DNA from: Balneolales bacterium
GTDB lineage: Bacteria > Bacteroidota > Rhodothermia > Balneolales > Cyclonatronaceae
Assembly: GCA_022565805.1 (NCBI GenBank)
Contig: JAIULZ010000001.1
Location: 1 to 64,000, forward strand
DNA: 64,000 nucleotides
Reading direction: 5' to 3'
Made by a program: the position numbers and the translations under genes. The notes below the pieces were generated by a model. That model was not told the origin of the DNA, made no database searches, and saw nothing but the letters and a program-made list of their open reading frames with translations. Shown in pieces: positions 3,752 to 63,222 of this stretch. Every line of letters starts with the position of its first letter. Position 1 is the first letter of the stretch.

Positions 3752-3865
3752 TTATCAGCTTAATGCATTTTGCTGAAACAACGTAATCGAATCTCTGATT
3801 ATTGTTACGCAAATGCATTGCCCTTATTGATTCATTACAGCTAATAACATATTTAATATTTACAA

Positions 3866-5875: not shown

Positions 5876-5890
5876 TAATAGACAGTATTG

Positions 5891-7522
5891 ATGGAAACAT
5901 TATTAAATCTGACCATATATCTGCCTCTTCTCGGTCTTATAGGCATTTTAGCCGCACGAAGTGAGGATGCAGTAAAGTGGATTGCGCTTGCGGCTACATC
6001 TGTTACTTTTGCCGTGTCTCTGCCACTGATATTTAATTTTGATGTAGCTTCTTCAGACACAGCTCAGTTTGTTACCGAGTCTGGAAGCCTTGTTTTCGGT
6101 CTCGATATTAAATACATCGTTGGATTAGACGGCTTAAGTCTTCTCTTATTCATGCTCACTACTTTTTTCGGCCCGATTGTAGTTCTAGGTGCATGGACCT
6201 CTGTTAAAAAACATGTAGCTGGTTTCTACTCCATGCTTATGATCCTTCAAACGGGATCTCTTGGGGTTTTTGCTTCTCTTGACCTTGTTGTCTTTTACGT
6301 TTTCTTCGAGCTTACGCTTATTCCAATGTATTTCCTTATAGGAATATGGGGTGGATCTGGTCGTATAGCCGCTACAATTAAGTTCTTTCTCTATACTCTT
6401 GTAGGTTCTCTTATTATGCTCGTTGCACTGGTATATGTAGGTTACCATGCAGGTGCAGCGATTAATAACGGAGTTTTTATATCCGATTGGCGAGTACTAT
6501 CGGGTATGGAGTATCAAATAGGATTAGTTGAGCAAACATGGCTTTTTCTGGCATTTGCGCTGGCATTCTTTATAAAAGTACCCTTGTTCCCATTCCACAC
6601 ATGGTTACCATATGCTCATACCGAAGCACCTACAGCAGGTTCGGTAGTGCTCGCAGCTATTATGCTTAAAATGGGTACATATGGATTAATTCGCTTTTGT
6701 TTGCCGCTATTTCCTAACGCAATGCTTGAATTTGCACCTTATATAGCTTTTCTGGCAGTGATAGGTATAGTTTATGGAGCCTTGGTAGCCATGGTGCAGA
6801 AAGATGTGAAAAAGCTGGTTGCTTACTCATCTGTGAGTCACCTGGGTTTTGTTGTTCTTGGCCTATTTGCCCTAAACGTAATTGGTGTACAAGGCGCTAT
6901 TATTCAAATGATTAACCACGGGTTGTCTACCGGAGCTTTGTTTCTTATCGTAGGTATGATTTACGATCGTCGTCATTCGCGTCAGATTGAAGACTTTGGC
7001 GGTATTACTACCATAATGCCAGTATTTGCCGTCATGTTTATGCTGGCAGCCTTTTCAAGTATCGGATTACCCGGCCTAAATGGGTTCGTGGGTGAATTCC
7101 TTATTTTGATGGGTGCATTTACCTCCGAAAGTATTGGAAATATCTGGTTTGCCATTGTTGCCACAACAGGAGTCATTCTTGCAGCTATTTATATGCTTTG
7201 GATGTTCCAGAGAGTTATGTTTGGCCCGGTAACCAAAGAAGAAAACAAAAATTTGAAAGACCTCAATGCACGTGAAATTGGTCTTTTAATACCCGTAATG
7301 ATTTTTATCATATGGATTGGTGTACGGCCAACTCATTTTACTCAGTATTCTGAGCACCAGGTAACAGTATTACTCGAACAAGCCGACGAAAAGCGGATAG
7401 CTGTAATAGAATCAGCTCAAAATGATATTCATAATTTACCTAATTGGGCTTCAAAATTTTACGATATAACGCCTTCATTGGCCGAAGCCACTACTCCTAA
7501 AACCGACCAGGATGAGCGCTAA
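5891..7522 (+). CDS. nuoM: NADH-quinone oxidoreductase subunit M
   Basis: Antiporter-like proton-pumping subunit M of complex I, 543 residues. The essential glutamate is Glu140 in VFYVFFELTLIPMYFLIG, and the lysine-bearing helices follow (AFFIKVPLFPFHTWLPYAH, then MVQKDVKKLVAYSSVSHLG). A TTG directly before the ATG at 5891 could also start the frame, but the ATG is the simpler choice. The C-terminal 60 residues are hydrophilic. The last 11 bases overlap the start of the pterin dehydratase gene, which suggests translational coupling. Confidence 0.96.
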   Translation: METLLNLTIYLPLLGLIGILAARSEDAVKWIALAATSVTFAVSLPLIFNFDVASSDTAQFVTESGSLVFGLDIKYIVGLDGLSLLLFMLTTFFGPIVVLGAWTSVKKHVAGFYSMLMILQTGSLGVFASLDLVVFYVFFELTLIPMYFLIGIWGGSGRIAATIKFFLYTLVGSLIMLVALVYVGYHAGAAINNGVFISDWRVLSGMEYQIGLVEQTWLFLAFALAFFIKVPLFPFHTWLPYAHTEAPTAGSVVLAAIMLKMGTYGLIRFCLPLFPNAMLEFAPYIAFLAVIGIVYGALVAMVQKDVKKLVAYSSVSHLGFVVLGLFALNVIGVQGAIIQMINHGLSTGALFLIVGMIYDRRHSRQIEDFGGITTIMPVFAVMFMLAAFSSIGLPGLNGFVGEFLILMGAFTSESIGNIWFAIVATTGVILAAIYMLWMFQRVMFGPVTKEENKNLKDLNAREIGLLIPVMIFIIWIGVRPTHFTQYSEHQVTVLLEQADEKRIAVIESAQNDIHNLPNWASKFYDITPSLAEATTPKTDQDER

Positions 7523-7802
7523 CGTATTATCAGAAAGCGAAATTAATGAAGTTTTAAGCGAACTAACAGACTGGGAGTTCGATGACAATGCTTTAAGGCT
7601 GGAATTGTCTTTCGAAGATTTTAAATCTGCCATTTCCTTTATTGTTAGGTTGAGCTACGAGGCTGAAGATCTTGGGCATCATCCCGAAATACAAAACGTG
7701 TACAGTAATGTAGTTATAAGACTATGTACGCATGATGCCGGGGATAAGGTAACACAGCTTGATGTTGAGCTAGCCAGACGCATAGATAATTTTACAAAAT
7801 AA
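7512..7802 (+). CDS. Pterin-4a-carbinolamine dehydratase in the nuo operon
   Basis: Cytosolic enzyme that dehydrates 4a-hydroxytetrahydropterin during recycling of the pterin cofactor of aromatic amino acid hydroxylases. In 96 residues it shows the whole family signature: Glu52-Asp53, His56-His57-Pro58, Tyr64, His74 and a later Asp. It overlaps nuoM by 11 bases and ends six bases before nuoN, so it is cotranscribed with complex I. A pcd homologue among the complex I genes is known from Rhodothermus marinus. No phenylalanine hydroxylase gene is in the window, so its role with complex I is open: pterin repair, molybdopterin-linked chemistry or a structural role are all only possibilities. Confidence 0.93.
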   Translation: MSANVLSESEINEVLSELTDWEFDDNALRLELSFEDFKSAISFIVRLSYEAEDLGHHPEIQNVYSNVVIRLCTHDAGDKVTQLDVELARRIDNFTK

Positions 7803-7808
7803 CAGTTA

Positions 7809-9260
7809 ATGGAACTAGTAAGCGATTTTTTACAGTATTTGCCCGCTTCTATTGTAGCTGCCGGCGGACTGACCGTAATGATGCTTGACGGCTATAAAGC
7901 CAGATCACGTACCATCTATACCACTACCATGATGTTTCTTGGGGTGGCGCTGGCATTTGCTACTTACGACCTTTTCTATGCCGAAGATCAGATAATTTTT
8001 TCTGGTATGGCTGGTGCAGGTGGAACGGCAGCCTTTGGTACTTTTATCGTAGTATTCGGTACGTTTTTTACCGTAATTCTTACACATGATTATTTGGTTG
8101 GGGTAAAGCATAATTTCCCTCAGGTTTATCCAATGATCATGTTTTGTACCTTTGGCATGATTGTACTTGCCACAGCGACCGATCTTGTTACGGTATTTGT
8201 TGGTCTTGAAACCATGTCAATATGTTTGTATGCGCTTGCCGGTATTCTAAAAGACAAAAGGCTTGGTGTTGAGTCTGCTCTTAAATACTTCATAATGGGC
8301 GCATTCTCAACTGGATTTTTCCTCTATGGAATATCACTATTGTATGGAGCAACAGGCTCAACTTCGTTGGAGGTAATTGGTGCTTATACCGATGGAGGTC
8401 TAATTTACTGGGGTGGAGTCTCTCTTTTACTTGTAGCCTTCATGTTTAAAATATCTGCTGTACCTTTCCATATGTGGACACCAGATGTATATACGGGATC
8501 GCCAACAACAATTACGGCATATATGTCTACAGCCGGTAAAACCGCTTCTTTTGTAGCTTTGGTACTGGTACTCGACCGTGCTTTGCCTAATGTGTCCTCT
8601 GAACTTACCACCATGTTTAGCGTTATCGCTGTAATGACCATGGTACTCGGAAACGTAGTTGCTATGGTACAGGATAATGTTAAAAGAATGCTTGCCTACT
8701 CTTCCATAGCTCATGTTGGCTATCTGCTTGTAGGTCTTGCCGCTGGCACTGTAGCAGGCTACAGTGCGGTTCTGTTCTATCTGCTTGCTTACACATTTAT
8801 GAATGTTGGAGCATTCGGTGTTGTAGCTTACTACGAGAAAAATCACGATGTGCATTTTAATAGTGTTGAAAGCTACGCCGGCTTAGGTTATCAAAAACCA
8901 ATAATGGGAGTTTTGTTAAGTATTTTCCTTTTCTCGCTTGCAGGAATCCCGATTTCTGCCGGCTTTAATGCTAAGTATTTGGTTTTCTCCGCAGGTATCG
9001 AAGCTGGTTTAGTTGGTTTGGTTATTGTAGGTGTGCTTGCCAGCGCAGCCAGTGCTTATTATTATCTACGCGTTATGGTATATCTGTACTTCCGTGAGGG
9101 GAAAGAGAATGTTACACTTATGACCCCCAAGAAAGTATATTCATTTTCACTGGTATTTCTGGCAGTACTCACTTTATATTTCGGAGTAGTGCCGGCCGGA
9201 GTAACAGAATTAATTTTTGGTTTCTTTAGTGAAGGCGGAATCGTAGAGGCTTTGCCTTAA
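7809..9260 (+). CDS. nuoN: NADH-quinone oxidoreductase subunit N
   Basis: Third antiporter-like subunit of complex I, 483 residues and fully membrane-embedded. The conserved glutamate is Glu134 in VFVGLETMSICLYALAG. The lysine motifs lie in LKYFIMGAFSTGFFLYG and MVQDNVKRMLAYSSIAHVG, and the SPTTITAYMSTAGKTASF loop is typical of NuoN. It is the last gene of the cluster and is followed within 25 bases by a strong intrinsic terminator. It completes the pump subunits J-K-L-M-N, while the peripheral arm genes are not in the window. Confidence 0.96.
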   Translation: MELVSDFLQYLPASIVAAGGLTVMMLDGYKARSRTIYTTTMMFLGVALAFATYDLFYAEDQIIFSGMAGAGGTAAFGTFIVVFGTFFTVILTHDYLVGVKHNFPQVYPMIMFCTFGMIVLATATDLVTVFVGLETMSICLYALAGILKDKRLGVESALKYFIMGAFSTGFFLYGISLLYGATGSTSLEVIGAYTDGGLIYWGGVSLLLVAFMFKISAVPFHMWTPDVYTGSPTTITAYMSTAGKTASFVALVLVLDRALPNVSSELTTMFSVIAVMTMVLGNVVAMVQDNVKRMLAYSSIAHVGYLLVGLAAGTVAGYSAVLFYLLAYTFMNVGAFGVVAYYEKNHDVHFNSVESYAGLGYQKPIMGVLLSIFLFSLAGIPISAGFNAKYLVFSAGIEAGLVGLVIVGVLASAASAYYYLRVMVYLYFREGKENVTLMTPKKVYSFSLVFLAVLTLYFGVVPAGVTELIFGFFSEGGIVEALP

Positions 9261-11516: not shown

Positions 11517-14500
11517 TTGCTACTATCTAATGTTAAAAAGCTCTTGGCACAATTATTAGTGCTTTTTCTATGCAGCGCAGGCTATGCTATATTTTCGCCT
11601 TCGCATGCAGAAAAAAGTAGTGATGGAAATCGTTTTTGGCAGGAATTTGTAGTTGAACTAGATTCGCTGCGTGCACTTGAAAACGAGCCTCTGGAATTGA
11701 ATATTGATAAATGGATTTTAGAAAATTCGGTTCAAATTCGCTTTAAATTTGGTGATCAGCATAACACTGTTACTTTAAATGAATGGACGGTTAAAGATTC
11801 CCGTAGCGGTGATATAGCCATTGACAGACAGGAATTGCTGCGAATAATGGAGTATGCTGGTATAGAATATGGCGTAATTAAGGTGTATTACGACAGACTG
11901 CCTATTAATTTGAGACTAGCTTATTTCAGAAGAATTCTGGTAGATGATGTCGATCAGGACTATTTACCAGCTTTAGTGCTGGCCGATTCGCTAACAGCTG
12001 AAACCCGAATTAGCAGACCTGCCGCTGGTCAGGATTTGTTCGGCAGTACTAATATTCAGCGCAGCGGAAGTATTACACGGGGTATTACGGTAGGTACAAA
12101 TCAGGATGCATCTCTCGAAAGTGGCCTAAGGTTCGAGTTAAGCGGTAACATAACCGATGATATCGAAATAATAGCGTCGTTAACCGATCAAAGTACGCCA
12201 ATTCAGCCCGATGGAACCACGCAGAATTTAAGAGAGTTCGATCGTGTATTCATTCAGCTATCACACAGGCAGGGTCAGCTTCAGCTTGGTGATGTAGATG
12301 TCGCTCTAGACCGCAGTGATTTCGCCCGTATCAACCGCAGACTGCAAGGGGCGGAAGTACAGTTGAGCCTGGATAGCTACGGCGATTGGCAGGCCGCAGC
12401 GGCTGTAGTGCGCGGCCGGTTCAGAGCAATGACCTTCAGCGGTTTAAATGGAGTGCAAGGGCCCTATCGACTTACGGGCTCGAATAACGAAACATTCATA
12501 ATAGTGCTGGCTGGTACAGAAAGAGTTTGGCTAAATGGTCAATTACTAACCAGGGGCGAGGAAAACGACTACGTAATCGACTATGCTCTTGGCGAAATAA
12601 CGTTTACGAACCGGAGAATGATTGGTACAGATAGTCGTATAACCGTAGATTTTCAATACGTAACCCAAGAGTATAACCGAACGCTAATTACAACAGAGAC
12701 AGAACATGCGGAGCTTCTCGGCGGCAGATTAGCGGTAGGCGCCAGCTTTATTCGTGAATCGGACAGCAGGAGCCTGAACGCCGAAGAGGGGCTAACCGAC
12801 GAAGAGCTACGTATTCTGCGGGAAGCCGGGGCTGATGTAGAAAATGCGGTAATCTCGGGTGCTGAAAACGTAGGATTTCGTGCGGATGCCGGTTTCATTC
12901 TGTACGTACAGGCCGATACTACATTCCAGGGCAACCAGTTTACTATATTTCGTGCAGCTCCCGAGGATACAAGCGCCGTATGGCGCGTTCGCTTCAGTAG
13001 GGTTGGTGATGGCTTGGGGTCCTACAGAAGAGCCAGTAGCACGCTAAATGGCATCGTTTATGAATGGGTAGGGCCCGGCTTGGGTTCTTATGAGCCTTTC
13101 AGGAGAATACCAGCGCCGCGCCAACAGCAAATGCTGGCGGTTCGAACAAACCTTGATATTACTCCTAAGGTTAGCTGGTTCACCGAAACTGCGGTAAGCG
13201 AACTAGATGTAAACCGTTTTAGTCAGACTTCAGAATCGGTAACACAAAGCGTAGGATATATAACGGGTTTGCGCGTAGATGATGTGGAAACTCTGTTTGG
13301 AAAAGTTTCTGCACGACTTGTGCACCGCTATACAGGTAACGATTTTTCGTTTTTTGACCGCGTAAGGGATGCTGAGTTCGACCGAATATGGAATCTGCCG
13401 GCATCGGCAGAATCCAGGGAATTATTCACTTCTTTGGAAAGTGATCTGGTGATAAGCCCATTCTCGTCTCTAAGCGCGGGAGCAGGTTATATTGAACGTC
13501 CTGATATCAGCAGTTTTAGGGTGAATGCAGGCGCAAATGTGGCTGGTGGTGGATTGCCACAATTAAGGCATCAGGCAGACTATGTGTTTAGTGAATATTT
13601 GTTATCGGGACAAGAAAGCAGCTGGCTTCGATATTCGGGAGATTCACGCTATTCAACTCGTTTATTCGGTTTAGGAATTACACCCGGTCTGCGGGCCGAA
13701 GCGGAGCAAAGGAGGCAGATATTTGGGGATGATTTGCTGCCCGGTTCCTTTCGTTTTGCAGAACTTGCCCCCGGCCTCCAAGTTACGCCAACCGAAAGGG
13801 TTACCATAGGATATACAGTCGGTTACAGGCAAGATGAAAACCAACTCGATGGTCGATTCGCCCGGGAAGCCATCACCCTTACACACGAATTGAACTCGCA
13901 GCTGCAGCCAAGTGATAATCTGGATTTCACAGCAGGCATAATTTATCGCGAAAAAGAGCTCTTTCAGGCCAGTGGTGAACCTCTCATAGGCGAAACGATT
14001 AAAGAAGAATCTGCACTGTTGAGATTAAGCGCAGACTATAGATCTCAAGGCAATGCACTTCAGATTCAGTGGCAGTATGAAGCCGGTACCGAGCGACGAC
14101 CACTACTTCAGGAAACATATATTGAGGTTGGGCCAGAGCTTGGAAACTATATCTGGATAGATTTAAACGGCGATGGAGTACAACAACTCGACGAGTTTTT
14201 TCCTGAGCAAACACCAGGTGAAGGAATATACCTTCGGCAGTTTGTGCCATCCGATGAGCTCATACCTGTTACGAGTTTAAACACCAGAATTAGAAGCAGA
14301 CTGGATCCCGGTCGAATTATAGATTCGCGCTTTTGGAAAAACATTGCGCTTAATTCGCTTTTCGAGCTAAGAGAACAAAACAGAGGCGCCTCTTTGGGAG
14401 AAATTCTTTTACTAAATCCTGCTGCTTTTTTAAACAGCCAAAATACCATAGATGGCCGGCTTTTTTGGCAACAAGAGCTTCAATTATTACGGGAAGTGCG

Positions 14501-15101
14501 TCGGGCAGATGTTCGTTTAAGGTACAATCAGCTTCGGGGTCTTAACCAGCGCACCTCGGGCGGTGAGAAGCAGTTTAGCAATGAGTTTGGTACAGATTCT
14601 AGCTACAGATTTGCTTCTGGAATACAGGTAAATCTGGAAACAGCAGTAGGTAGGAGAGAAGTGAGTAGCGACAATTTGGGCAACCGAAGTTTTACAATTA
14701 GCTATACCGAAGCTGAGCCATCAGTAAGGTATACGTTTAGCAGATCGTTGCAGGCCGGGTTCGGTACAGCACTCGCATTACGCTCAGACACCAGACCGGA
14801 GCAAATGGCAGATGCAACTGAAATAAGGATTTTTAGTGATTTTAGACTATTTTATCAAAATACGCTACAAACGTTTGCACGCGCAGAGCTACGCTCAAAT
14901 GAAGTGTCGGGTTCGCCTACACCCGGCAGCCTCATAGAGCTTACAGACGGCTCCGGCACGGGACGTTCGGTTAGATGGTCGATGCAGGCAACGTACCGTA
15001 TTAGCCAATATTTACGGGCTAATATCAATTATGACGGCCGAACAGTGTCGACCGGACCCGCGATTCAGACGCTTCGTTTTACACTAAATGCAGTTTTTTG
15101 A
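11517..15101 (+). CDS. Large probable outer-membrane beta-barrel surface protein
   Basis: A 1194-residue exported protein of no family I can name with certainty. The N-terminus (KKLLAQLLVLFLCSAGYA) is a signal peptide. The body has alternating beta-strand patterns, tyrosine-rich turns and a C-terminal phenylalanine, all typical of outer-membrane barrels. A segment near residues 340-375 (VIDYALGEITFTNRR) resembles repeats found in large Bacteroidota surface proteins such as SprA; this is a resemblance only. A calcium-loop-like DLNGDGVQQLDEF lies around residue 880. There is no ATG between the upstream in-frame stop (11430) and the signal peptide, so the start is the TTG at 11517. An ExbB/ExbD module follows 160 bases later, suggesting that the barrel or its partner may be energised. 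Confidence 0.75.
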   Translation: MLLSNVKKLLAQLLVLFLCSAGYAIFSPSHAEKSSDGNRFWQEFVVELDSLRALENEPLELNIDKWILENSVQIRFKFGDQHNTVTLNEWTVKDSRSGDIAIDRQELLRIMEYAGIEYGVIKVYYDRLPINLRLAYFRRILVDDVDQDYLPALVLADSLTAETRISRPAAGQDLFGSTNIQRSGSITRGITVGTNQDASLESGLRFELSGNITDDIEIIASLTDQSTPIQPDGTTQNLREFDRVFIQLSHRQGQLQLGDVDVALDRSDFARINRRLQGAEVQLSLDSYGDWQAAAAVVRGRFRAMTFSGLNGVQGPYRLTGSNNETFIIVLAGTERVWLNGQLLTRGEENDYVIDYALGEITFTNRRMIGTDSRITVDFQYVTQEYNRTLITTETEHAELLGGRLAVGASFIRESDSRSLNAEEGLTDEELRILREAGADVENAVISGAENVGFRADAGFILYVQADTTFQGNQFTIFRAAPEDTSAVWRVRFSRVGDGLGSYRRASSTLNGIVYEWVGPGLGSYEPFRRIPAPRQQQMLAVRTNLDITPKVSWFTETAVSELDVNRFSQTSESVTQSVGYITGLRVDDVETLFGKVSARLVHRYTGNDFSFFDRVRDAEFDRIWNLPASAESRELFTSLESDLVISPFSSLSAGAGYIERPDISSFRVNAGANVAGGGLPQLRHQADYVFSEYLLSGQESSWLRYSGDSRYSTRLFGLGITPGLRAEAEQRRQIFGDDLLPGSFRFAELAPGLQVTPTERVTIGYTVGYRQDENQLDGRFAREAITLTHELNSQLQPSDNLDFTAGIIYREKELFQASGEPLIGETIKEESALLRLSADYRSQGNALQIQWQYEAGTERRPLLQETYIEVGPELGNYIWIDLNGDGVQQLDEFFPEQTPGEGIYLRQFVPSDELIPVTSLNTRIRSRLDPGRIIDSRFWKNIALNSLFELREQNRGASLGEILLLNPAAFLNSQNTIDGRLFWQQELQLLREVRRADVRLRYNQLRGLNQRTSGGEKQFSNEFGTDSSYRFASGIQVNLETAVGRREVSSDNLGNRSFTISYTEAEPSVRYTFSRSLQAGFGTALALRSDTRPEQMADATEIRIFSDFRLFYQNTLQTFARAELRSNEVSGSPTPGSLIELTDGSGTGRSVRWSMQATYRISQYLRANINYDGRTVSTGPAIQTLRFTLNAVF

Positions 15102-26179: not shown

Positions 26180-29100
26180 TTACTTAACCAGCATCATTTT
26201 TTGTGTTTGAACGAAGCTGCCAGCCTGTAACCTGTACAGGTACATACCCGAGGCAAGGCGGTTAGCATCAAATACAACCGTATGATGGCCGGCATTCTGC
26301 TGACCATTTACAAGTACAGCTACGAGTTGTCCCTGCAGGTTAAAAACTTCCAGACGAACTTCAGAAGCTTCCGGCAGAGCATATGCTATATTCGTAGTTG
26401 GGTTAAACGGGTTAGGATAGTTTTGATTAAGCGCAAACTCCGTTGGCATATCCGTTTCCGGTTCGGTGCTTACACTCGAAACATTATTAAAGAAAACAAC
26501 ATCAAGAGTGTGGCTTTCGCCGGTTAGAGTAAGAATGCGGTTATTTGTACCGCCTTCGCCAACTGAATCGTCTTCCCAACCATCGTTAGGCAGGCTTCGG
26601 CCGTCTCCGGCAACAATAAAGTACTTGTACTCATGCTCCGATCCGGCTGGCTCTGTAAAGTGATGCACTACATGGTAAATGCCATCATCATCTGGTACAA
26701 GAGCCTCACCTTCAACAACCGACCAATCGTTAAAACTACCGCGAATATATACTTCATCGCCTACTTCCGGCATAAAGTTTCCTAAATCTTCCTGAATACT
26801 CATATCCAGTTTAAAGGTAATAGCCTGAAGATCTTCGTCATCGTGTAATACGGTAATAGTAACAGGTATTACAGCTACTGGCGTTGCAGGCGAATCGGTC
26901 TGCACTACTATTTCTGCATTGTAGGTTCCAGGCTCGAGTTCCTCTGCATTTAACGTTGCGGCAATGGCATCAGAACCTTGAGCTGCAATGGTACCAGAAG
27001 AAGGTTCGAAAGTAAACAGCCCGTCTCCGGCATTTCCTACTACATTCAGTACCAGGTGTGCATCCGGGAAACCAATAGAGCTGTAGGATGTGGGCTGTGT
27101 AATCCCGCATGCGTCCGACGCAATGTAAGATGGAGACGTTTCGCCGGCATCGTTGGTGCCGGGGAAGAAGTCAGATCCTGATTGCTCGAAAACAACAATT
27201 TCTACAACGAGTGTAGAAGCAGCAGGTACTTCGGCCTCTACAGGAATCGTAATAACCTGCAGATCTTGTGAGCTAGTTACTGTAGTTATCGAAGAGGTGC
27301 CGAGCAACGTCATATTACTGAAGTTCAGTGAACCTTCGAGAAGGTGAATTCTGGCCTCCATTGTAATTGTGCCGGTTATACTTTCAAGACCGAATTGTAC
27401 AGCCGAAACATCAAAGTCGCTTTCGACTCCAAAATCGGCGAGCGTATAGGTTCTCATATAGCTGTTTTCGGCAGTTCCTGCTGCGCTTCCGCAACGAACG
27501 CCGTTTAGCTCCTGTACTACTTGAGATACAGAATGAGATAGTACCAGTTCGTCGTTTAGTATGCCACGGTTAACAAAAGGAGCGTTCTCCACGAGTTGTG
27601 ATCTACCGGATGGCGGTGTGCTCATCAGGGATTCATTACCGGCAGAAAGGGTATAGCCCTGCTGTGCGTTATTACGGGCACGGCTTGTGCCATTTTCTGA
27701 GTTGAAAACGGTTGCCTCGCCAATAACGGGCACTATTCTGCTTTCATCGGCAACAATGCCACCTGAGATAGAATAAGAAAGATCGGCTTCACCTTCGTTA
27801 GATAGCGTAAAGCTAAAGTTAGTACTGCTGCCCTGTGCAACCGTAAAGGTAAAGCTATCTTGGTCTATGCTTAGCAGGCCGGGTACGATACCGGTTCCGC
27901 TTACATCTACAGTGGCGTCGCCTGCATTCGATTCGAATACAACAGTACCCGAAAATGAACCGGTTGAACCAGGAGCAAAAGTTATATCAACTTCTTCAGA
28001 TTCGCCCACTGCAAGTTCAAATGCATCGGCATTAACCTGAAACTCTCCGCTGTTGCTTACTACAGAAGTAACAGCCAACACATCTGTACCCGTATTTGTA
28101 ACCGTTACGGTTTGGGTTAATACCAGTCCTTCAGCAATTTGACCAAAATCGATAGATTCAGGATCAAGGCTGATTTCAGGTGACCCAATTACGGTGAGTG
28201 TGGCGGGTACATCTATCTGCGGATTCACAGGATCGTTACTGGTAAACACCAGCAGGTCTTCGTAAACGCCGCCGATCAAATCCATAGAATCGATCGTAAC
28301 CATAACAGAAACAGATGAACCGCTCTCTACCATACCGGATACTGGCTCTACGGCAGTAATAAACGGTACGGTAGGGGCAACGCCCTGTAATGTAATATTA
28401 CCAGACCATGTGCCACTTGGTGAAGTTGCCCATGCGTTTCCAATAGAAACATACAAGTCTTCTACATTAAGCGGGGTTGGAATATTAATCGTTGTTTGTA
28501 CGGGTGTGCCGGGTGTGCCAGTGTTACCTACGCCCCATACAATACGTGGTGTGGCGCCAAAGTCTGAAAACCCGCCAACCTGCAATACAACCGTTGCCGG
28601 ATCTATAGTCGAAGCATCTTCAAGGGGTACTGTTGAAAACAGAACGCCAAAGTCGCTGGCCCATGTACCGCCTTCAGATGCATTCAGAACAAAATCAGCC
28701 GAAACTGCTGTTAGTTCACCGTTCAGGTTTTGTGCTACGGTAATGAATTCGCCACCGCTTAAAGAAAGAGATTCAAACTCAACCAGGAAGCCGTCATCAC
28801 TAAGTAGAGAAGCGTCCTTATCTGCCTTGGAATCATTTTCTAATGATTCAAGGAAGCTTTGAACTCTGCTAAGCTGCTCAGCAGAAAGCTGGCTGGTGTT
28901 GCCGCTTCTTACCATTTCAGTTAGAGTTCTAAGCTGACTATTCTCGATTTCTTCCTGGCTTCCAGCCGTAGCTGAAATTAGGCGATTAATGAGCTTATCG
29001 CGCAGCATTAATGCTTCCCGGTCTGTATGCTGAAGCGCACGCGCTACGGCAAAATCGGGGAAGACAAACTCAAGCGATCCTGAACCTTCATTACTTACAG

Positions 29101-32100
29101 TAAGCTCTACCGTTGTAGAATCTCCTGCATCAAGTTCTGCACTGAGGCTTTCCGGGCTTACTCCTGCAAGTGGAGTTTCCACTACAGAAGCGGTAAGGGC
29201 AACACTAAGGCTTTCGTTATTTTCATCGTTAGAAGAAAAGCTTAGAGTGGCGTTTCTCTCGCCAAGCTCGGTTGCAGTAAACGTTACGGGTAACTCAACG
29301 CTTCCAAAAGGAGGCACTGTGAAATCATCTTCCGATACAGAAAAATCTGCATGGTCTACGGCAACATCGCTAATCTCAAGTACACCGTTTCCTGTGTTGG
29401 AAATAACCAGGGAAAGAGATCTTTCTTCTGATAAAAACAGCGACCCAAAGTCTAGCTCTTCGGCACTTAATTCGATGCTTACAGAGCCGGTTACGTTCAT
29501 TACAGCCGGCAGAATGAATTCTGGCTGCTGCGGGTCGTTACTGCTTATCAGGATTTCGCTTTCGTAGGTTCCGCCAAGATAGCCATCTGCATTAAATGTG
29601 GCGCTAATTTCGAGCGATTGTCCTGCAGCTACACTGCCCGAAGCTGGCGAAATATCTGTAATGAAAGGCATGCCTGTAGATATGCCACTTAAAACAACGT
29701 TTCCAGACCAGCTGCTCGATCCTCCCGGATCCCATCCGTGACCAATCCAAACGGTTATCCCTTCCATATCGAGCGGGCTTGGTATTTCTATGGTAGTTTG
29801 AACGGCTGTTCCAGGTGCTCCTGAACTACCAGTTCCCCAGGCGATGCGGCTACCTGCAGGGCCATAATTTGTTAATCCGCCCACTTGTAGTACTACACTC
29901 TCGGGAGAAACTTCGCCACTTGTCGTAAACAGAACAGCAAAATCGTTCGCCCATGTACCGCCATCGGCAGAGTTAATTACGAAGTCGGCTACAACGGCAT
30001 CCATTTCTCCGTTAAGTTCATTAGTAACCATCATAAACTCGCCGCCAGAGGCAGTGAAGTTTTCGAACTCGATGGTAAATCCTTCATCATTTAGAATTGA
30101 TGCTCCGCTGTTTCCAGCAGATGCTTCGGCATTAATTTGATCCAAATACTGGTTAATGATTCTTTCTTCATCCGTATTGGGGTTATTCAAATAGCCGTTT
30201 AGATAACGTTCTACCGTAAAACGGGCAAACGTATCGGCTTCGGTTGTTTCAGTTGCTACAGATGTAGCATGGGTACGAAGCAACGAAGTATATGCGGCAA
30301 ACGCCGGATCGTTGAGCAGAAGTCTTTCAGCAATAAAGGCAGGAAAGATAAAGTCGAGCGGACCGTCGCCTTCATTTATTATGGTGAAGGTTTCTACAGT
30401 TTCTTCACCGCCTGCAAGGGTAGACTCAAGTACCGACGGGTCAACCGCAATAGATGGCACCTCAGTACCGGCACCAAGCAGGCTAATAACTATATCGCCA
30501 GACTCGTTATTACCAGTAATGGTAAGCGATTCGTTGAATTCGGCGATTACATCTGGTGTAAAAGTAACTTCTACAGAACGGCTTTGGCCAGGTGCAAGAA
30601 TAAAGCCACCTGCATCAGAAACGCTGAAAACATCTGATGATGATGTAATAGCGTCGATTTCTGCCAGTGCTGTACCGTTATTAACCAGGGTGAAACCCAA
30701 GGTCTTGGAGTTATCACGAAAAACGTTGCCGAAATCGAGTTCATCTGCAGAGCTCGAAACAACCGCTTGACCACCTGCTGTTTGCAGGAAGAAATCGATA
30801 CGCTGCGATGTGTTGCTAAGGTCGTTACTGATGAGGTTAGTGTTCGCCTCATAAACGCCGGCAACAATCTCGGTTGCATCAAAGGTGATTGTTACTTCAA
30901 CAGATTCACCAACAGGAATAGAGCCGGATGCAGGTGTAATAGCGCTGATGAAACCAGGCGAATCGCTTACGCCAACAAGCTCTACAGAACCAGTCCAGCT
31001 GCTACTACCACCGGGGTTCCAGCCATGTCCCAACCAAATATGCAGATCTTCTACATCAAGTGGAGTAGGTATATTTATAGTTGTGTTTACAGGTGTGCCC
31101 GGCGCGCCAGACGAACCTGTACCCCATGGTATACGGCTGCCTGCAGGACCGTAAACGGTTAATCCACCTACCTGAAGAACAACAGATTCTGTGGTAATTT
31201 CGTCTGAAGTTGTAAACAGTACGGCAAAATCGTTCGCCCATGTTCCGCCTTCGGCGCTGTTAATTACAAAATCTGCAACAACGGCAGTTAACTCGCCGGA
31301 GAAACCATCACCAGTTACATCAAAAAATTCACCACCAGAACCAGTAAGGTTTTCAAATTCGATTACAACAGACTCATCGCTTTGTAAACCAGGCATATTG
31401 TTTGCCTGATCTTCTGCAATAAGCTGCTGGAAACGGCTGATTACCAGTTGTTCGTAACGGTTAGGCGTAGCAAGACTGCCATCTAAATAGCTGGCAAAAA
31501 TAGAACGCTCAGTCTTCTCGCGACTGCTGGAGGCACTGGCATAATCTGCTGTAACGCTGGTTTTAAGAGGAGCTGCATTTTCGCCGGTAAATAGTCTGTT
31601 ATTAACGTATGATGGGAAAATGTAGGTTAGAAGTCCTTCACCTGTATTACTTATAACAAGTGTTTGGTCTTCTGTTTCGCCAATTTCAACTTCTGCGCTA
31701 AATTGTGTAGCACTTAGACTTATTTCCGGAGAGCCATCTGTTGTGGCGCTCACTACATTAGAAATGTCGGAAAAATTGGCATAAAGGTCTCTGGCTTTAA
31801 TTGCAAAGTAGTAGGTTGTTTGTGGTTCTAAACCATCTACACGAACCTGCTCCAGTGTGCCTGAGGCCGAAGGGTTAAAGGGGAGATCAAATTGATCTGC
31901 GCTGTCGAAGTTACCAGCGTTTATCGGGCTTGTAGAAAAGCGTAAATCATATCCAAAAGCCTGGCCTTCATCTCCACTACTTCCCGGAGCGGTCCAGCTT
32001 AAATCAACATAATTTTCTGCTATAAATCCAACGGTTTGCAGATCCTGAATTGAGGCAGGCGGTACGCCATCATCTTCTTCTAAAGCGCGAAAAGCGTTTA

Positions 32101-33541
32101 CGCGACCGGCACCCATAAGCCCCTGGAAGTTTGGGTTTGCGGCTTCGATGTCATCAACTGTAAAAATCATGCGTTGCACGATTTCTTCGTTGGTGAGTCC
32201 CGGATATTTAGAGGCAACCAGAGCTGCAACACCTGCAGCGTGCGGAGATGCCATAGAAGTACCCTGGAAGAAGGCATAGCCACCAACATTGGTGCTTAGT
32301 ACCCCTTGATTGGCAACGGTATTGGTCTCGCCACCGGGGGCAGAGATATCTATCCAGGAACCGTATTGAGAGTACCATGCTTTTTGATCGTTATGGCCGG
32401 TAGAGGCTACCGCAATAACTTCCGGGTTAGATGCAATAGGCTGCGATGGGTTAGAACTGCCGTTATTACCTGCAGCGAAGAAAATAACACCACCCTGTAC
32501 CGGACCGGATGGGTTTCCGTTTTCATCGAAACCAGCATTATCACGGAAATAATCTATAGCATCATTGAGTACCTGAGAAAAACCACCGCCACCCCAGCTA
32601 TTGTTCGAAATTACTGCACCATTATCGGCACCGTAAACAAAACCCTGCGGGAAACCACCGGGGGTATTACCCGGACCAGAAAAAACTCTGGCAACCATAA
32701 TGCGTACACCTGCTTCATCGGCTGTACCACCTGCGATACCTGCAACACCAACTCCATTATCGTTACGTGCAGCTATTGTACCGCTTACGTGCGATCCGTG
32801 GCCGTCCTGATCCTGAATATTATTGGTATTGTTAACAAAATTCCACCCGTGAAAGTCACCATCGAAGCCGTTACCGGGGCCCGGAACCGGGTTTTCCCAA
32901 AGAACGCCCTGCAGGTCGGGATGATTTTGATCAAAACCGGAATCCATTACCTTTACGATAATATCAGAACTACCGGTAGTGAGTCCCCAGGCTTGAAACA
33001 AGCTAATGTCGGAACCAGGGGTACCGCCTGTCTGGCCGGTATTATTGTAGTGCCATTGCTCCGCCAGTCTGGGGTCGTTGAAATCCAGCAAATCCTGGAT
33101 TTCTTCGTTGTTTAAAACATTGCCAATGAGATGTCTCTTATAAATACGCTCGGCAACTTCTATTTCTGCAATAGAAGAAAAAGATTGTATAGCGGCATCG
33201 GTCGAAAATGAATTATCGAACTGAAGTCTGTACCAGCGGTCGAGGCCGTAAGCACGATGTCTTTCTGCGAATCGGGGGTCGGTTACAAACACCTGCTCCA
33301 TAGATTGTACGCTAAATTGGGCATTTAGTGCATCTATGGAGGATATGCCGGTTAACTGAGATGTTTCGCTCAATAGAGACGCGTCAAGCTGGTTTTTAGC
33401 CTGTTCGCTAATCTTTATTTTGATGTAGCCTTCGTGCCACTCAATCTGTTCCTGCGCAAATGATGCCGTAGTAAAGGCACCCGCGAGTAAAAGAAAGAAC
33501 AGCATCTTCAGACTAAACTTTATGGTTTCTGATAGATACAT
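26180..33541 (-). CDS. Secreted subtilisin-like serine protease with T9SS sorting domain
   Basis: A 2453-residue extracellular or surface-bound protease. Signal peptide 1-29; prosegment to about 150; peptidase S8 domain about 165-485 with Asp200 (VMDSGFD), His248 (DGHGS; His248 precedes Gly249), oxyanion Asn near 359-360 (AAGNNG) and Ser429 (GTSMASP), so the triad is complete. A fibronectin type III domain follows (500-605). Then come several choice-of-anchor/ASH-like beta domains in which a roughly 140-residue module occurs three times (about 722-858, 1153-1289 and 1584-1722). A carbohydrate-binding-like domain ([12 protein letters not shown], about 2260-2350) and a T9SS type A C-terminal domain ([12 protein letters not shown], then YLYRLQAG) end the protein. 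It is a single gene with its own terminator. It would need the type IX system, whose genes are not in the window. Confidence 0.93.
28374..28790 (-). repeat. Internal module 3 of the subtilase
   Basis: Third copy of the roughly 140-residue module marked by [24 protein letters not shown] and TTINIPTPL. It is the most divergent copy: GSRI/GHGW motifs are replaced by TPRIVWG and GNAW. The three copies recur every 1.29 kb. Confidence 0.8.
29674..30082 (-). repeat. Internal module 2 of the subtilase
   Basis: Second copy of the module, with [35 protein letters not shown] and [12 protein letters not shown]. It is very close in protein sequence to module 1. Confidence 0.85.
30966..31375 (-). repeat. 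Internal module 1 of the subtilase
   Basis: First copy of the module, with [35 protein letters not shown] and [12 protein letters not shown]. The strong likeness to module 2 suggests a fairly recent internal duplication or gene conversion. The tryptophan/glycine-rich loops suggest a ligand-binding beta-sandwich, possibly carbohydrate-binding (inference). Confidence 0.85.
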
Positions 33542-58142: not shown

Positions 58143-60644
58143 GTGTCTATTATACTTCGATTAATCTCCTGTCTTACGCTTTCAGCGGCCTTCCTTTTTG
58201 TTATTACTGCAGATGCAGTATCCCAAACAGTGCCACCCATTTCACCTGGTTCCGTAATCTCGAACCCCTTAGATCAGGTTCCTAGAGAATACCGAATATC
58301 TGCGGTAGATGTAACAGGAGCTGAAACCAGAAGCCCTGCCATGATTATTTCTACTTCGGGTTTGCAGGTGGGTGATCGTATTACCATACCCGGTCAAGCC
58401 ATTTCTGATGCAATTACCAGACTTCACCGCACAGGCCTTTTTTCTGATGTCCAGATTTATCAGGTATCAAGAACTTCAACAGAGGTTCATCTTGAAATTG
58501 AGGTTCGTGAACAACCTAGACTCGATCGCTTCGAAATTACCGGCCCAAGGAGATCGCAGCGAAGAGATTTACGTGATAAAATTCCTCTTATTCCGGGTTT
58601 TGCGGTTACCGAATCTTCCAAGGCTCAGGCTACTAATGTTATCATGCGCTACTATGCCGATAGAGGGTACCGGAATACAGAGGTAATAATTGTAGAAAAA
58701 GATTTCGATGATATTCGTAACAGGGTAACGCTTGAGTTTCAGGTAGATCCCGGAGACCGCATACAAATTCGCGAAATAGAGTTTTTTGGGAATGAGAACT
58801 TTACAGACAGACAACTGCGCGGAGAGCTGAAAGAGATAAAACGTACCAATATCTGGCGCTCTTTAACCCGGCAAACGTTCGATCGTGAAAGCTATCAGGA
58901 AGCAAAAGATAACCTCATTAAGTTTTACCAAAGAAATGGTTTCAGGGATATTCGCATACTTTCTGATACCGTGTTTGTATACGAGCATAACAGCAGAAGA
59001 GATGGTATTAGAATAGAAATTACTCTTGCCGAGGGCCCTCAGTATAAGGTGCGTAATATTACGTTTGATGGAAATACAGTCTACTCAGACGATCAGCTAC
59101 GCGCTGCCTTGGATTTCCAGACCGGTGATGTGTTTAACGAAGAGCGTTTCAATCAAAATATGTACGGAAATCGCAGAAATAACGATTTATATGCGATGTA
59201 CCACGATATCGGCTATCTGTTTCTCCGCGAAGAAACAGAAATTCGTAATGTGCCGGGCGACTCTTTGGATATACACGTAAATTTAATTGAAAACGATATC
59301 GCGACTATACGGCAGGTCGAGTTTATGGGAAATACGAAAACCCATGATCATGTTGTACGCAGAAATCTTAGAAATCTGCCCGGTAATAACTACAGTAGGT
59401 CTGCAATTCAAAGATCTGTAAGGGAACTTGCAACGTTAGGTTATTTCGTGCCTGAAAATATTATTCCGGATTTAGACCCCGATTTTGAAAACCGCACTGT
59501 AGATATTTTTTATAGTCTGGACGAATCAGCTGGCTCAGATAATTTCGAGCTTTCAGGTGGTTTTGGAGCAAGAGAAATTGGCGTAATTTTGTCGGCCAGA
59601 ATTAATTTTAATAATTTTTCTGCAGCTAATATGTTTAACGGCGAAGCATGGAGACCTCTTCCTAGTGGAGATGGGCAGCGTTTATCCGTAGGAGTGCAGC
59701 TCACTGGTCGTGGCTATCGTAGTTATAATCTGGGTTTTCAGGAGCCATGGTTATTTGGTCGGCCAAACTCATTTGGTATTAGCGTTTCCTATAGTTTCTT
59801 CTCTCAGGCAAACTTTAACCGCTTCTCTGATATCAATAATCAGTTCGAACAGTTTTTGGTGAATCTCACCTTAGGGCGAAGACTTACTTTCCCAGATGAC
59901 TTTTTTACGCAAACCACGCAATTGCGCTATCAAATGTTTGAATCCAGATTTCAAACAGGCCTTATCGAAGGCGGTCGCTCCCAAACCGTATCCATGCGTT
60001 TAGGTTTGAATAGAAATTCATTGGATAACTTCATTTCACCCAATAGTGGATCTACATTCGATGCTGGAGTTGAATTTGCGATTCCAATACCTGGTTTAGA
60101 TCAGTTTTATCTGGCCGATATTAGTTTTACGCAGCATATCCCTATTGTTGGGCGCCTTGTTGCTTCATCAGGTTTTGAGTACGGATACCTCGGGTGGTTT
60201 AGCGACAATAATCGTAGCCAATATCAGCGTTTCTATTTGGGAGGAACTCAACTTCAGCAGCAGCAAACATTCTTCCAGAACAATATTGATCTTAGAGGGT
60301 TTCCGGGTGGGCGAAACGGTTCTATTTCTCCATATATAGGAAATGAGGCCATCGGCGGAACTATTTACAGTAAGTATGCCGCTGAAATAAGGTACCCGGC
60401 CGTTAGCTCAGATCAGATACAGCTTATTCCGTATCTGTTTTTTGAAGCTGGAAATTCATACAGAGATTTTTACGAATTTGATCCTTTCGATGTGAAAAGA
60501 TCTGTTGGCCTTGGCGCCAGAGTATTTCTGCCGATTTTAGGTCTTATAGACCTTAGCTACGGCTATAGACTTGATGGTATCCCGAACACTCCGGTCCGCC
60601 CGGGTCAGTGGGAGTTTCTGTTTAATATCGGCGCTCCATTTTGA
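58143..60644 (+). CDS. bamA: Outer membrane protein assembly factor BamA
   Basis: Central barrel of the BAM machine that inserts outer-membrane proteins. The 833 residues start with a signal peptide (to about 28), then five POTRA domains (about 45-470), then a 16-strand barrel. The lid-loop motif is LRGFPGGRNGS, the BamA (V)RGF variant, and the C-terminal strand ends GQWEFLFNIGAPF with terminal Phe (beta signal). There is no ATG between the in-frame stop at 58110 and the signal peptide, so the start is the GTG at 58143. Four OmpH genes follow. A copy of the last part of this gene occurs at 61362. Confidence 0.97.
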   Translation: MSIILRLISCLTLSAAFLFVITADAVSQTVPPISPGSVISNPLDQVPREYRISAVDVTGAETRSPAMIISTSGLQVGDRITIPGQAISDAITRLHRTGLFSDVQIYQVSRTSTEVHLEIEVREQPRLDRFEITGPRRSQRRDLRDKIPLIPGFAVTESSKAQATNVIMRYYADRGYRNTEVIIVEKDFDDIRNRVTLEFQVDPGDRIQIREIEFFGNENFTDRQLRGELKEIKRTNIWRSLTRQTFDRESYQEAKDNLIKFYQRNGFRDIRILSDTVFVYEHNSRRDGIRIEITLAEGPQYKVRNITFDGNTVYSDDQLRAALDFQTGDVFNEERFNQNMYGNRRNNDLYAMYHDIGYLFLREETEIRNVPGDSLDIHVNLIENDIATIRQVEFMGNTKTHDHVVRRNLRNLPGNNYSRSAIQRSVRELATLGYFVPENIIPDLDPDFENRTVDIFYSLDESAGSDNFELSGGFGAREIGVILSARINFNNFSAANMFNGEAWRPLPSGDGQRLSVGVQLTGRGYRSYNLGFQEPWLFGRPNSFGISVSYSFFSQANFNRFSDINNQFEQFLVNLTLGRRLTFPDDFFTQTTQLRYQMFESRFQTGLIEGGRSQTVSMRLGLNRNSLDNFISPNSGSTFDAGVEFAIPIPGLDQFYLADISFTQHIPIVGRLVASSGFEYGYLGWFSDNNRSQYQRFYLGGTQLQQQQTFFQNNIDLRGFPGGRNGSISPYIGNEAIGGTIYSKYAAEIRYPAVSSDQIQLIPYLFFEAGNSYRDFYEFDPFDVKRSVGLGARVFLPILGLIDLSYGYRLDGIPNTPVRPGQWEFLFNIGAPF

Positions 60645-61361
60645 TCTTAAATAAAAATTGAAGCTCATGAAAACCAAATTCAGAACAGGCAGTCGCCACA
60701 TTTTTATTGTGGCACAGTTCTTTTTACTGGCCTTACTAATCGGTTTTCCTTCGCTATTGAATGCTCAAAACCAGAGAGTTGGGTACATCGACTCAGATTT
60801 TATTCTTAGCAAAATACCTGAGTATGAGGACGTAGAAAAGCGGTTAAGAGAACTTGCTCAGAAGTGGAGGGAGGAAATAACCGAAATGGAAGGCGAAATT
60901 GAAACTCTTCGGCAAGAATTTGAAGCCCGTGAAATTTTATTTACTCCGGAAGTGCGCCGGGAAAGGCAGCAGGAAATAGATAATAAACTACGTGAAAGAG
61001 AACGTTTCATAAATAGTCGCTTTGGTCCCGATGGAGAATATTTCAGGCAACAGCAGGAGTTACTTCGTCCATTACACCAACAAATAGATGAAGCTATGAA
61101 GAAAATAGCAGAACGAGATGGTTACGATTTTGTATTCGACCGAAGCGGTGATTATGTGTTTTTTTATACACGCAGGCAATGGAACCTTAGCGTAGATGTA
61201 TTGTTAGAGCTAGGGATACAGGTAGAAGAAGATGTTTTGCCATAAATGTTCTCCATAGTTGTACCATAAAGATCGACGGATCGTTATATTTACCAGCCCA
61301 TTAATAAGTGTGATTATTTAGTTCATAAAAGCCGTAGAATTATAATATTACAACATATTGA
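60599..61361 (+). repeat. Tandem duplication, copy 1 (bamA end plus ompH1)
   Basis: This unit begins within the last codons of bamA (CCCGGGT at 60599) and runs through the first ompH and its downstream flank. It is repeated directly at 61362-62110 with an offset of 762 bases. Both flanks and the gene align. Confidence 0.85.
60667..61245 (+). CDS. OmpH/Skp-family periplasmic chaperone, copy 1
   Basis: Exported 192-residue protein of the OmpH/Skp family, periplasmic holdase chaperones that deliver unfolded barrels to BamA. Signal peptide to about residue 34 (GFPSLLNA-QNQ); YIDSDFILSKIPEYE opens the mature part; a long charged coiled coil (about 65-145) forms the tentacle; and FVFDRSGDYVFFY is the body. 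The start is the ATG at 60667, not the TTG at 60658. By eye it is about 79% identical to the next copy (40 differences in 192). Confidence 0.92.
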   Translation: MKTKFRTGSRHIFIVAQFFLLALLIGFPSLLNAQNQRVGYIDSDFILSKIPEYEDVEKRLRELAQKWREEITEMEGEIETLRQEFEAREILFTPEVRRERQQEIDNKLRERERFINSRFGPDGEYFRQQQELLRPLHQQIDEAMKKIAERDGYDFVFDRSGDYVFFYTRRQWNLSVDVLLELGIQVEEDVLP

Positions 61362-61408
61362 CCCGGGTAATTGGAGTTCTGTTTTAATATCGGCGCACAA
61401 TTTTTGAT
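61362..61408 (+). pseudogene. Relic of the 3' end of bamA
   Basis: About 47 bases match the end of bamA (60599-60645) from CCCGGGT through AATATCGGCGC to TTTTGATCTTAAATAAAA, with small indels. The frame after the PG(N/Q)W codons is disrupted. It was carried along when the ompH unit was duplicated. Confidence 0.85.
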
Positions 61409-61428
61409 CTTAAATAAAATTAAAGCTC

Positions 61429-62007
61429 ATGAAAACCAAATTCAGAACTGGTAAAAACTGCATTATTTATGCAGGGCAATTTTTATTGCTGGTTTTTCTA
61501 GTTGGTTTTCCTGCGCTTTTAAATGCTCAAAATCAAAGATTAGCGTATATCGACACAGATTTTATTTTTAGTAAAATACCTGAATATGAAGGCGTAGAAC
61601 AGCGTTTAAGGCAACTTTCTCAGCAGTGGAGGGATGAAATAACCGAGATGGAACGCGAGATAGAAAGCCTGAGACAAGAATTTGAAGCCCGTGAAATTCT
61701 TTTTACACCGGAGGTAAGAAGGGAAAGACAGCAGGAGATAGACAATAAAGTTAGGGAAAGAGAACGTTTCATTAATAGTCGCTTTGGTCCCGATGGAGAT
61801 TATTTCAGGCAACAGCGGGAATTACTCAGGCCCATACAACGACAGATTGTTGAAGCTACAAATAAAGTAGCAGAACGCGACGGTTACGACTTTGTTTTTG
61901 ACCGTAGTGGCGACTTTGTGTTCTTTTACGCTCGCCGGCAATGGAACATCAGCGTAAATGTATTGCTGGAGCTTGGCATACAGGTAGAAAGCGATGCTTT
62001 ACCATAA
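61429..62007 (+). CDS. OmpH/Skp-family periplasmic chaperone, copy 2
   Basis: 192-residue paralogue made by tandem duplication of the preceding gene. The signal peptide regions differ most, while residues about 82-108 (LRQEFEAREILFTPEVRRER and beyond) are identical in both. All coiled-coil and body features are kept and the frame is intact, so it is probably functional. The leader before the gene is the duplicated end of bamA. Confidence 0.92.
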   Translation: MKTKFRTGKNCIIYAGQFLLLVFLVGFPALLNAQNQRLAYIDTDFIFSKIPEYEGVEQRLRQLSQQWRDEITEMEREIESLRQEFEAREILFTPEVRRERQQEIDNKVRERERFINSRFGPDGDYFRQQRELLRPIQRQIVEATNKVAERDGYDFVFDRSGDFVFFYARRQWNISVNVLLELGIQVESDALP

Positions 62008-62122
62008 AAGTTCTTCGTAGCTCTACCATAAAGTTCGCCGGATATCGTTATATTTACCGGCTGATTAATGAGCCCTTATTTTAGCTCGTTTAAGCCGTAT
62101 AACTACAATAAAGAAATCATTT

Positions 62123-62644
62123 ATGAAAAAACTGATATTAGCTGTATTTCTGATCCTAATTGGCGCAGGTCAGCTATTGGCACAACAACGTATTGGCTTT
62201 GCCGAACCTCAGCTTATACTCGACTCAATACCCGAACGCGATAGAATAGAGCGTGAACTTGAACGTTTTTTTAATGAATGGGAAAACGATTATGAGAACC
62301 TGTATGAGCGTTATAGTGAAGAGTTGTTTTTGTACCAGGATAGTCGTGCGCAGCTTAGTGAAAGCCAAATCAGACAGGAAGAAATGCGCCTAAGAGAAAT
62401 GGCAGAAGAACTTGAGTTTATGCAGCAGGAGTTCGGTATGGTATTCGAACAAAAAAGAGCCGAGCTTTTGGGACCGGTTGTAGAAAGAATAAACGAAGCA
62501 ATCGCAACTATTGCGCGACAAAAAAACCTAGATTACGTGTTTCAGTCCGAGACCAGTAATGCAGAACCCATGTTCTTTATTATCAAAACGAATCCTAATG
62601 CAATTAACATCACCGACGATGTAATTGCGCGTATGAATCCATAA
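62123..62644 (+). CDS. OmpH/Skp-family periplasmic chaperone, copy 3
   Basis: A 173-residue more distant paralogue: signal peptide to about 20 (LLAQQ), RIGFAEPQLILDSIPERD, a long Glu/Arg coiled coil and DYVFQSETSNAEPMFF. It is shorter than copies 1 and 2. The next gene's ATG lies 17 bases after its stop, indicating cotranscription. Confidence 0.88.
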   Translation: MKKLILAVFLILIGAGQLLAQQRIGFAEPQLILDSIPERDRIERELERFFNEWENDYENLYERYSEELFLYQDSRAQLSESQIRQEEMRLREMAEELEFMQQEFGMVFEQKRAELLGPVVERINEAIATIARQKNLDYVFQSETSNAEPMFFIIKTNPNAINITDDVIARMNP

Positions 62645-62661
62645 CCAAATTGACATATCTC

Positions 62662-63222
62662 ATGAAATACGTTTTTACTAAGACTGTATTATTTTTTGCA
62701 GCTGCATCTTTAATTATGTTTGCTGCTCCCTCTCAGTCTTCGGCTCAAGAATTAAGAATTGGTATAGTTGATGCCGGTGAGATTCTTATGCAAATGCCGG
62801 AGCTAACTACAATTTCCGATCAGCTCGATGGTTTCACGAATCGTAAAAGACGTGAATTTGCCCAACTTGAATCCGAGTTTGTGCGTGCCAGAGAAGAATT
62901 TGAGCAGAAAGTAGCTGTAATATCAGAATCAGCGCGACAGGCAGAGCAGGAAAGGCTTTCTCAGAAGGCGCTTAGACTGCAGCAGTTCCAGCAGGAATAC
63001 CAGCAGGAGTTAATGCAACGTCAGGAAAACCTGATTGCACCGCTTCGTCAGAGAATTCTCGATTCTATTAATGAAGTGGCTCAGGAAATGGGATTAGCCT
63101 ATGTTATAAACCGTATGGTGAATAATGGCGATATGGTTGTTCTTTATGCCTCCGAAGAAATGATGCAAAATTATGATGTTACCAGAAGAGTTAAGCAAAA
63201 AATGGGCATCAGAGAGAGATAA
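62662..63222 (+). CDS. OmpH/Skp-family periplasmic chaperone, copy 4
   Basis: A 186-residue paralogue with signal peptide (cleavage near SSAQ), LRIGIVDAGEILMQMPE, a glutamine-rich coiled coil (QQFQQEYQQELMQRQ) and LAYVINRMVNNGDMVVLY. The start is the ATG at 62662; a TTG four codons earlier is ignored. It is the last gene of the bamA group and is followed by an intrinsic terminator. Confidence 0.9.
   Translation: MKYVFTKTVLFFAAASLIMFAAPSQSSAQELRIGIVDAGEILMQMPELTTISDQLDGFTNRKRREFAQLESEFVRAREEFEQKVAVISESARQAEQERLSQKALRLQQFQQEYQQELMQRQENLIAPLRQRILDSINEVAQEMGLAYVINRMVNNGDMVVLYASEEMMQNYDVTRRVKQKMGIRER

Follow-up and report, generated by a model that had tools for sequence, protein, structure and literature searches.

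A tandem duplication adds a second putative SkpA-type gene to the bamA–ompH cluster of a Balneolales bacterium

Skp is encoded by a single gene in Escherichia coli. For Flavobacterium johnsoniae, passages of one study describe a T9SS Extended Translocon in which a SkpA trimer surrounds the SprA N terminus; without SkpA, gliding is abolished and export is strongly reduced, though not wholly lost, and deletion of the SkpA C-terminal helix is reported to be tolerated (PMC10994853). According to the same passages, SkpB cannot substitute for the neighbouring SkpA, the two types not being interchangeable, and SkpB is apparently essential in both F. johnsoniae and Porphyromonas gingivalis; the bamA–skp operon is found in hosts that lack a T9SS, too (PMC10994853). 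The P. gingivalis counterpart of SkpA, PGN_0300/PG0192, is likewise linked to the T9SS, and passages of that report describe PG0191–PG0192–PG0193 as one transcription unit, with a PG0192 protein of 174 residues (PMC5445135).

Here we analyse a stretch of 64,000 nucleotides from a Balneolales bacterium (the window), in which bamA is followed by four ompH genes. The locus is probably the standard bamA–skp cluster of its order (A, B' and B'') with a lineage-specific duplication of A, such that ompH1 and ompH2 are SkpA-type and ompH3 and ompH4 SkpB-side. Among the open-licence papers searched, which provide weak evidence of absence, we found no report of an array of three such genes or of skpA in two copies; neither is mentioned in the consulted portions of two studies of the BAM complex in Bacteroidota (PMC12611786, PMC12578637) or of a Skp/SurA review (PMC9820271).

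The bamA–ompH locus

The cluster is laid out as follows:
58143..60644, + strand: bamA, which opens the cluster; Omp85 with POTRA domains; TIGR03303, 341 bits; PF01103/PF07244
60667..61245, + strand: ompH1 (A1), 192 aa, SkpA-type; leader with AQ-N at its end; PF03938, 104.4 bits; 8gl8 chain G, E 4.6e-27; clade A
61429..62007, + strand: ompH2 (A2), 192 aa, SkpA-type; sister of ompH1 in the tree; PF03938, 101.6 bits; 8gl8 chain G, E 4.5e-25
62123..62644, + strand: ompH3 (B'), 173 aa, SkpB-side paralogue that occupies position 2 in the standard array of the order; PF03938, 83.4 bits
62662..63222, + strand: ompH4 (B''), 186 aa, SkpB-side paralogue that occupies position 3 in the standard array of the order; PF03938, 91.3 bits

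A sequence-only reading of the window had proposed four consecutive OmpH/Skp genes behind bamA. The open frames bear this out, coordinates included: all four lie on the strand of bamA and exceed the curated PF03938 cut-off (32.4 bits), and a whole-genome profile search returned these four as the only family members. The two divergence classes that it had distinguished also hold, with 79.2% protein identity between ompH1 and ompH2 and 23–30% in all other pairs. Read by eye, each sequence opens with a hydrophobic leader followed by AQ, in agreement with the glutamine rule of Bacteroidetes preproteins as set out in the part consulted of PMC10653852. The four products are, from their sequences, Skp-family proteins with predicted export leaders. 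All are acidic (pI 4.4–5.1 minus the leader, the value for ompH1 coming from a cut inside its leader).

It is barely conceivable that the fourth gene reflects misassembly or contamination. The assembly is fragmented (290 contigs), but its contamination value is 0, the four genes sit on one contig of 189,652 bases and are all placed with their genus in the tree described below, and 20% of bases differ between the two similar copies, many of these differences being silent changes in the coding sequence.

Three ompH genes are standard in the order

PF03938 counts across 128 genomes of the order centred on three (100 genomes), with no match in 6, one in 1, four in 18 (the window's genome among them), five in 2 and six in 1. 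In 116 genomes from the other orders of the class, two matches were found in 102, three in 9, four in 1, one in 1 and none in 3; across a 392-genome sample of the GTDB phylum, counts ranged from 0 to 5. At the locus itself, exactly three ompH genes stood behind bamA at 118 of 120 loci. These loci came from 119 genomes, out of 121 in the order that had matches besides the window's own (G052 and G075 were left out, and six genomes had no match); the remaining two loci were cut by contig ends, and bamA was split into two matches at 2 of the 118. One or two ompH genes had been presumed usual for the group, whereas three is the rule. At 40 loci from the other orders, two ompH genes followed bamA in 38 and three in one (G131, discussed below), and the last had two ompH genes and no bamA match.

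A further 80 named loci, partly overlapping the first set, comprised 68 from the order and 12 from outgroups. The named loci include Balneola, Fodinibius, Rhodohalobacter and Balneolia MAGs, and uphold the earlier placement of the window in Balneolota. Three ompH genes were present at all 65 uncut Balneolota loci (the other 3 of the 68 being cut by contig ends); outgroup loci held two in 6 cases, one in 5 (one of them cut) and three in 1. The count across Balneolota that had been suggested as a check thus gives three, and not four or more, as the standard, and among the loci read four ompH genes at bamA occur in the window only. The other genomes of the order with four to six matches do not have four at this locus; their surplus comprises matches below the cut-off, genes that contig ends have split, a locus present in two versions (G123) or copies elsewhere. 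Such copies away from the locus were found in G001, G003, G007, G011, G031, G039, G070 and G034 (in the last on its own contig).

Paralogue types and their history

A tree of 442 domains united the position-1 genes of the order in one clade (support 0.998), which was joined by the first gene of the other orders (1.0). The genes at positions 2 and 3 grouped together with the second gene of those orders (1.0) and with each other (0.862); position 3 was a clade (0.993), and position 2 was weakly supported (0.397, against 0.85 in a smaller tree). The smaller tree, built with FastTree, added 14 distant Bacteroidota loci and F. johnsoniae SkpA to a sample that did not include F. johnsoniae SkpB. It placed SkpA inside an 84-sequence clade A of position-1 genes (0.961), with five second genes from distant Bacteroidota also on the A side. 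The paralogue tree that the sequence-only reading had called for splits into an A side (position 1) and a B side (positions 2 and 3).

These groupings give a gene set of A and B for the class, of A, B' and B'' for the order, and of A1, A2, B' and B'' for the window; the whole order appears to run on three distinct Skp types. Paralogues at 23–30% identity stand in a fixed sequence across these genomes. Among 118 orthologues of each type, columns conserved at 80% or more numbered 51 for A, 18 for B' and 59 for B''; orthologues of ompH4 are more tightly constrained than those of ompH3.

Clade A is orthologous to Flavobacterium SkpA, and we read ompH1 and ompH2 as two SkpA-type proteins. F. johnsoniae SkpA (8gl8 chain G) was the sole Skp structure that either of them matched, and their Skp fold, of short body strands and a long helical hairpin, is assigned by sequence to this solved SkpA. 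AlphaFold2 models of ompH3 (pLDDT 87.7) and ompH4 (84.8) have the Skp fold with its helical hairpin, or tentacle; the best Foldseek hits were 8gl8 SkpA and Skp, as 1sg2/1u2m for ompH3 and 1u2m/1sg2 for ompH4. Both genes adjoin skpA-type genes and fall on the opposite side of the tree from SkpA. We read them as putative SkpB-side chaperones, which would most likely escort barrel proteins through the periplasm to BamA.

Some OmpH genes of the order stand apart from this array. Extra copies far from bamA in G001, G003 and G039 (L354, 2850–3392; L355, 3399–3959; L359, 3525–4085) form a clade of their own (0.999). They lie near large open frames of 933 to 1138 aa as far as the stretch reaches, and the frame at L359 gives a match to DUF6531 below the threshold (E 8e-4); these copies may be chaperones dedicated to a surface system or an RHS-like one. 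In G007, two adjoining OmpH genes away from bamA (L356, 3365–3937 and 3930–4484) divide between that clade and B'.

A tandem duplication behind the fourth gene

Nucleotide alignment revealed a repeated unit of 0.75 kb:
60599..61347, + strand: tandem unit copy 1, comprising the last ~45 bp of bamA, ompH1 and the spacer
61362..62110, + strand: tandem unit copy 2
61362..61428, + strand: decayed, frameshifted second bamA 3' end and the leader before the start codon

The two copies are 79.97% identical over 754 aligned columns. A second, frameshifted bamA end is present at 61362–61428 because the duplicated unit starts inside bamA; lying between ompH1 and ompH2, it has last residues that are readable only across frames. 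The sequence before the ompH2 start codon is a copy of the ompH1 leader. The fourth gene arose when the A gene was duplicated in tandem in this lineage, and the duplication took in the last ~45 bp of bamA as well. Consistent with this, ompH1 and ompH2 are sisters (0.969) nested in the position-1 clade of their genus.

Both copies are under purifying selection (dS 0.96, dN 0.12, dN/dS 0.12), and the second skpA is an intact gene. We looked for gene conversion between them and found no signal (longest identical run 26 bp, P 0.28). It is unlikely that the second copy is neutral and heading for decay. Such a transient state would fit a duplication confined to a single genome in the order, the decay that the unit's bamA tail has already undergone, and the excess of changes in ompH1, which in comparisons with each of nine relatives always carried more of its own (13–17) than ompH2 (5–12). 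However, a dS near 1 with a dN/dS of 0.12 and two intact frames points to long purifying selection. Moreover, ompH1 deviates from the order consensus at 8 of 51 conserved columns and ompH2 at 5, within the range of single-copy orthologues at the same columns (median 3, range 0–15).

A duplication with a unit of like design arose independently in G131, from another order of the class, where a bamA tail and skpA stand in tandem (L186, complement of 3817–8321). The repeat spans 775 columns at 91.9% nucleotide identity, begins ~200 bp within bamA and takes in the first ompH; the two copies of that gene are 89.6% identical, with a second bamA end between them.

The T9SS setting and the second SkpA

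Two further proteins of the window bear on its secretion system and on the proposed clients:
11517–15101, + strand: 1194-aa protein with an SprA-like stretch; TIGR04189, sub-threshold DUF2490 end
26180..33541, − strand: 2453-aa subtilase with a T9SS type A sorting domain; TIGR04183, 47 bits (cut-off 23); PF18962, PF00082

The window's genome encodes one full-length SprA (E 6.5e-156 to the solved SprA). Of its two SprA-profile matches, one is listed at full length, and the other is presumed to be the window's 1194-residue protein. The genome also encodes 115 T9SS sorting domains, and the 2453-residue subtilase carries repeated Ig-like modules. SprA, these sorting domains and this large cargo protein in the window are evidence that a T9SS operates in the host.

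By orthology, ompH1 and ompH2 would most likely form a trimeric cradle that holds the SprA N terminus in the T9SS Extended Translocon. They are without the C-terminal extension through which the F. johnsoniae protein contacts PorV (192 versus 341 aa). This extension is not defining for SkpA, given that deletion of the helix is tolerated and the P. gingivalis protein is short. In the SprA of the window's genome, the first ~236 residues, the part expected to bind SkpA, do not align to the solved SprA, and the SprA N terminus of the genus matched no solved relative. At L254 (G000:C23:24300–32400), the stretch of the genus's SprA from the leader to the conserved region is longer than in most other families aligned.

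Given the single full-length SprA, the second SkpA would serve the same translocon, most likely as an extra or partly diverged SkpA; a second SprA as its own partner was considered and rejected on that count. An extra SkpA might simply raise the amount of the protein for a heavy T9SS load, an explanation that we regard as possible although we lean against it. The 115 sorting domains are the most in the family sample (nine other members have 60–103), and a dN/dS of 0.12 and the duplicated leader before the start codon also speak for this explanation. Per megabase, however, sorting domains are no more frequent than in several three-copy relatives, and G131, which also has two A genes, has 64 in a genus that ranges from 40 to 79. 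A link between dosage and cargo load, judged from sorting domains per megabase in the window's family and from their number in the genus of G131, was thus unsupported.

Skp proteins being trimeric, A1 and A2 may, more speculatively, share mixed trimers. That such hetero-oligomers give the single SprA an asymmetric cradle seems to us rather improbable; the reading fits the Extended Translocon, in which SkpA protomers occupy inequivalent positions and one copy contacts PorV. If it were true, the independent duplication of a bamA tail and skpA in G131 would point to a recurrent route to asymmetry.

The sequence-only reading had favoured client specialisation, with each chaperone serving different large surface barrels and the extra one perhaps serving the 1194-residue protein. 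Two parts of this stand: the copies are more numerous than usual, and the paralogues are of distinct functional types. Their 23–30% identity in a fixed order, and the non-interchangeable SkpA and SkpB of F. johnsoniae described in the passages cited above (PMC10994853), argue that specialisation between types is real. The extra copy is another matter. TIGR04189 covers only residues 330–417 of the 1194-residue protein (~88 residues; E 8.6e-6, far below the cut-off), and proteins with the same stretch, in frames of 821–1371 aa (mostly 1109–1211), are common in the class. They are present in relatives with three ompH genes in the order or two in another order, and the protein therefore cannot explain a fourth ompH confined to the window; we rejected it as the client. 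The doubled gene is, in addition, SkpA-type, and the known role of this type elsewhere is inside the T9SS translocon and not in barrel delivery. Moreover, ompH2 differs from ompH1 by just 21% and carries no additional domain. Client specialisation in the full form proposed is accordingly very doubtful.

Discussion

The doubled skpA is real and unusual, and a modest new twist on the known bamA–skp cluster. Of wider use is the corrected baseline: behind bamA, the order has a fixed array of three Skp types, of which one is orthologous to a subunit of the T9SS translocon. This array offers a testable system for how Skp paralogues may share out secretion and barrel delivery. Two independent natural duplications of SkpA, in the window and in G131, against a single full-length SprA, give a direct handle on whether Skp trimers can be mixed.

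Compared with the described systems, the window's A genes resemble SkpA (Fjoh_1689, PDB 8gl8) and PGN_0300 in lying in a bamA cluster of a T9SS host. They share a clade with F. johnsoniae SkpA and can be aligned to it over ~160 residues, but the window has two SkpA-type copies, and its A proteins lack the long C-terminal extension of that SkpA. The SkpB proteins of F. johnsoniae and P. gingivalis resemble ompH3 and ompH4 in standing beside skpA, across the tree from SkpA, with a Skp fold; SkpB is single in those operons, whereas two deeply diverged copies (B' and B'') are found throughout this order. E. coli Skp (1sg2, 1u2m) matches in fold and family (profile E 1.6e-8 for B' and 2.8e-9 for B''; Foldseek probability 1.00), and in place of its one gene the window has four, all of which encode acidic proteins.
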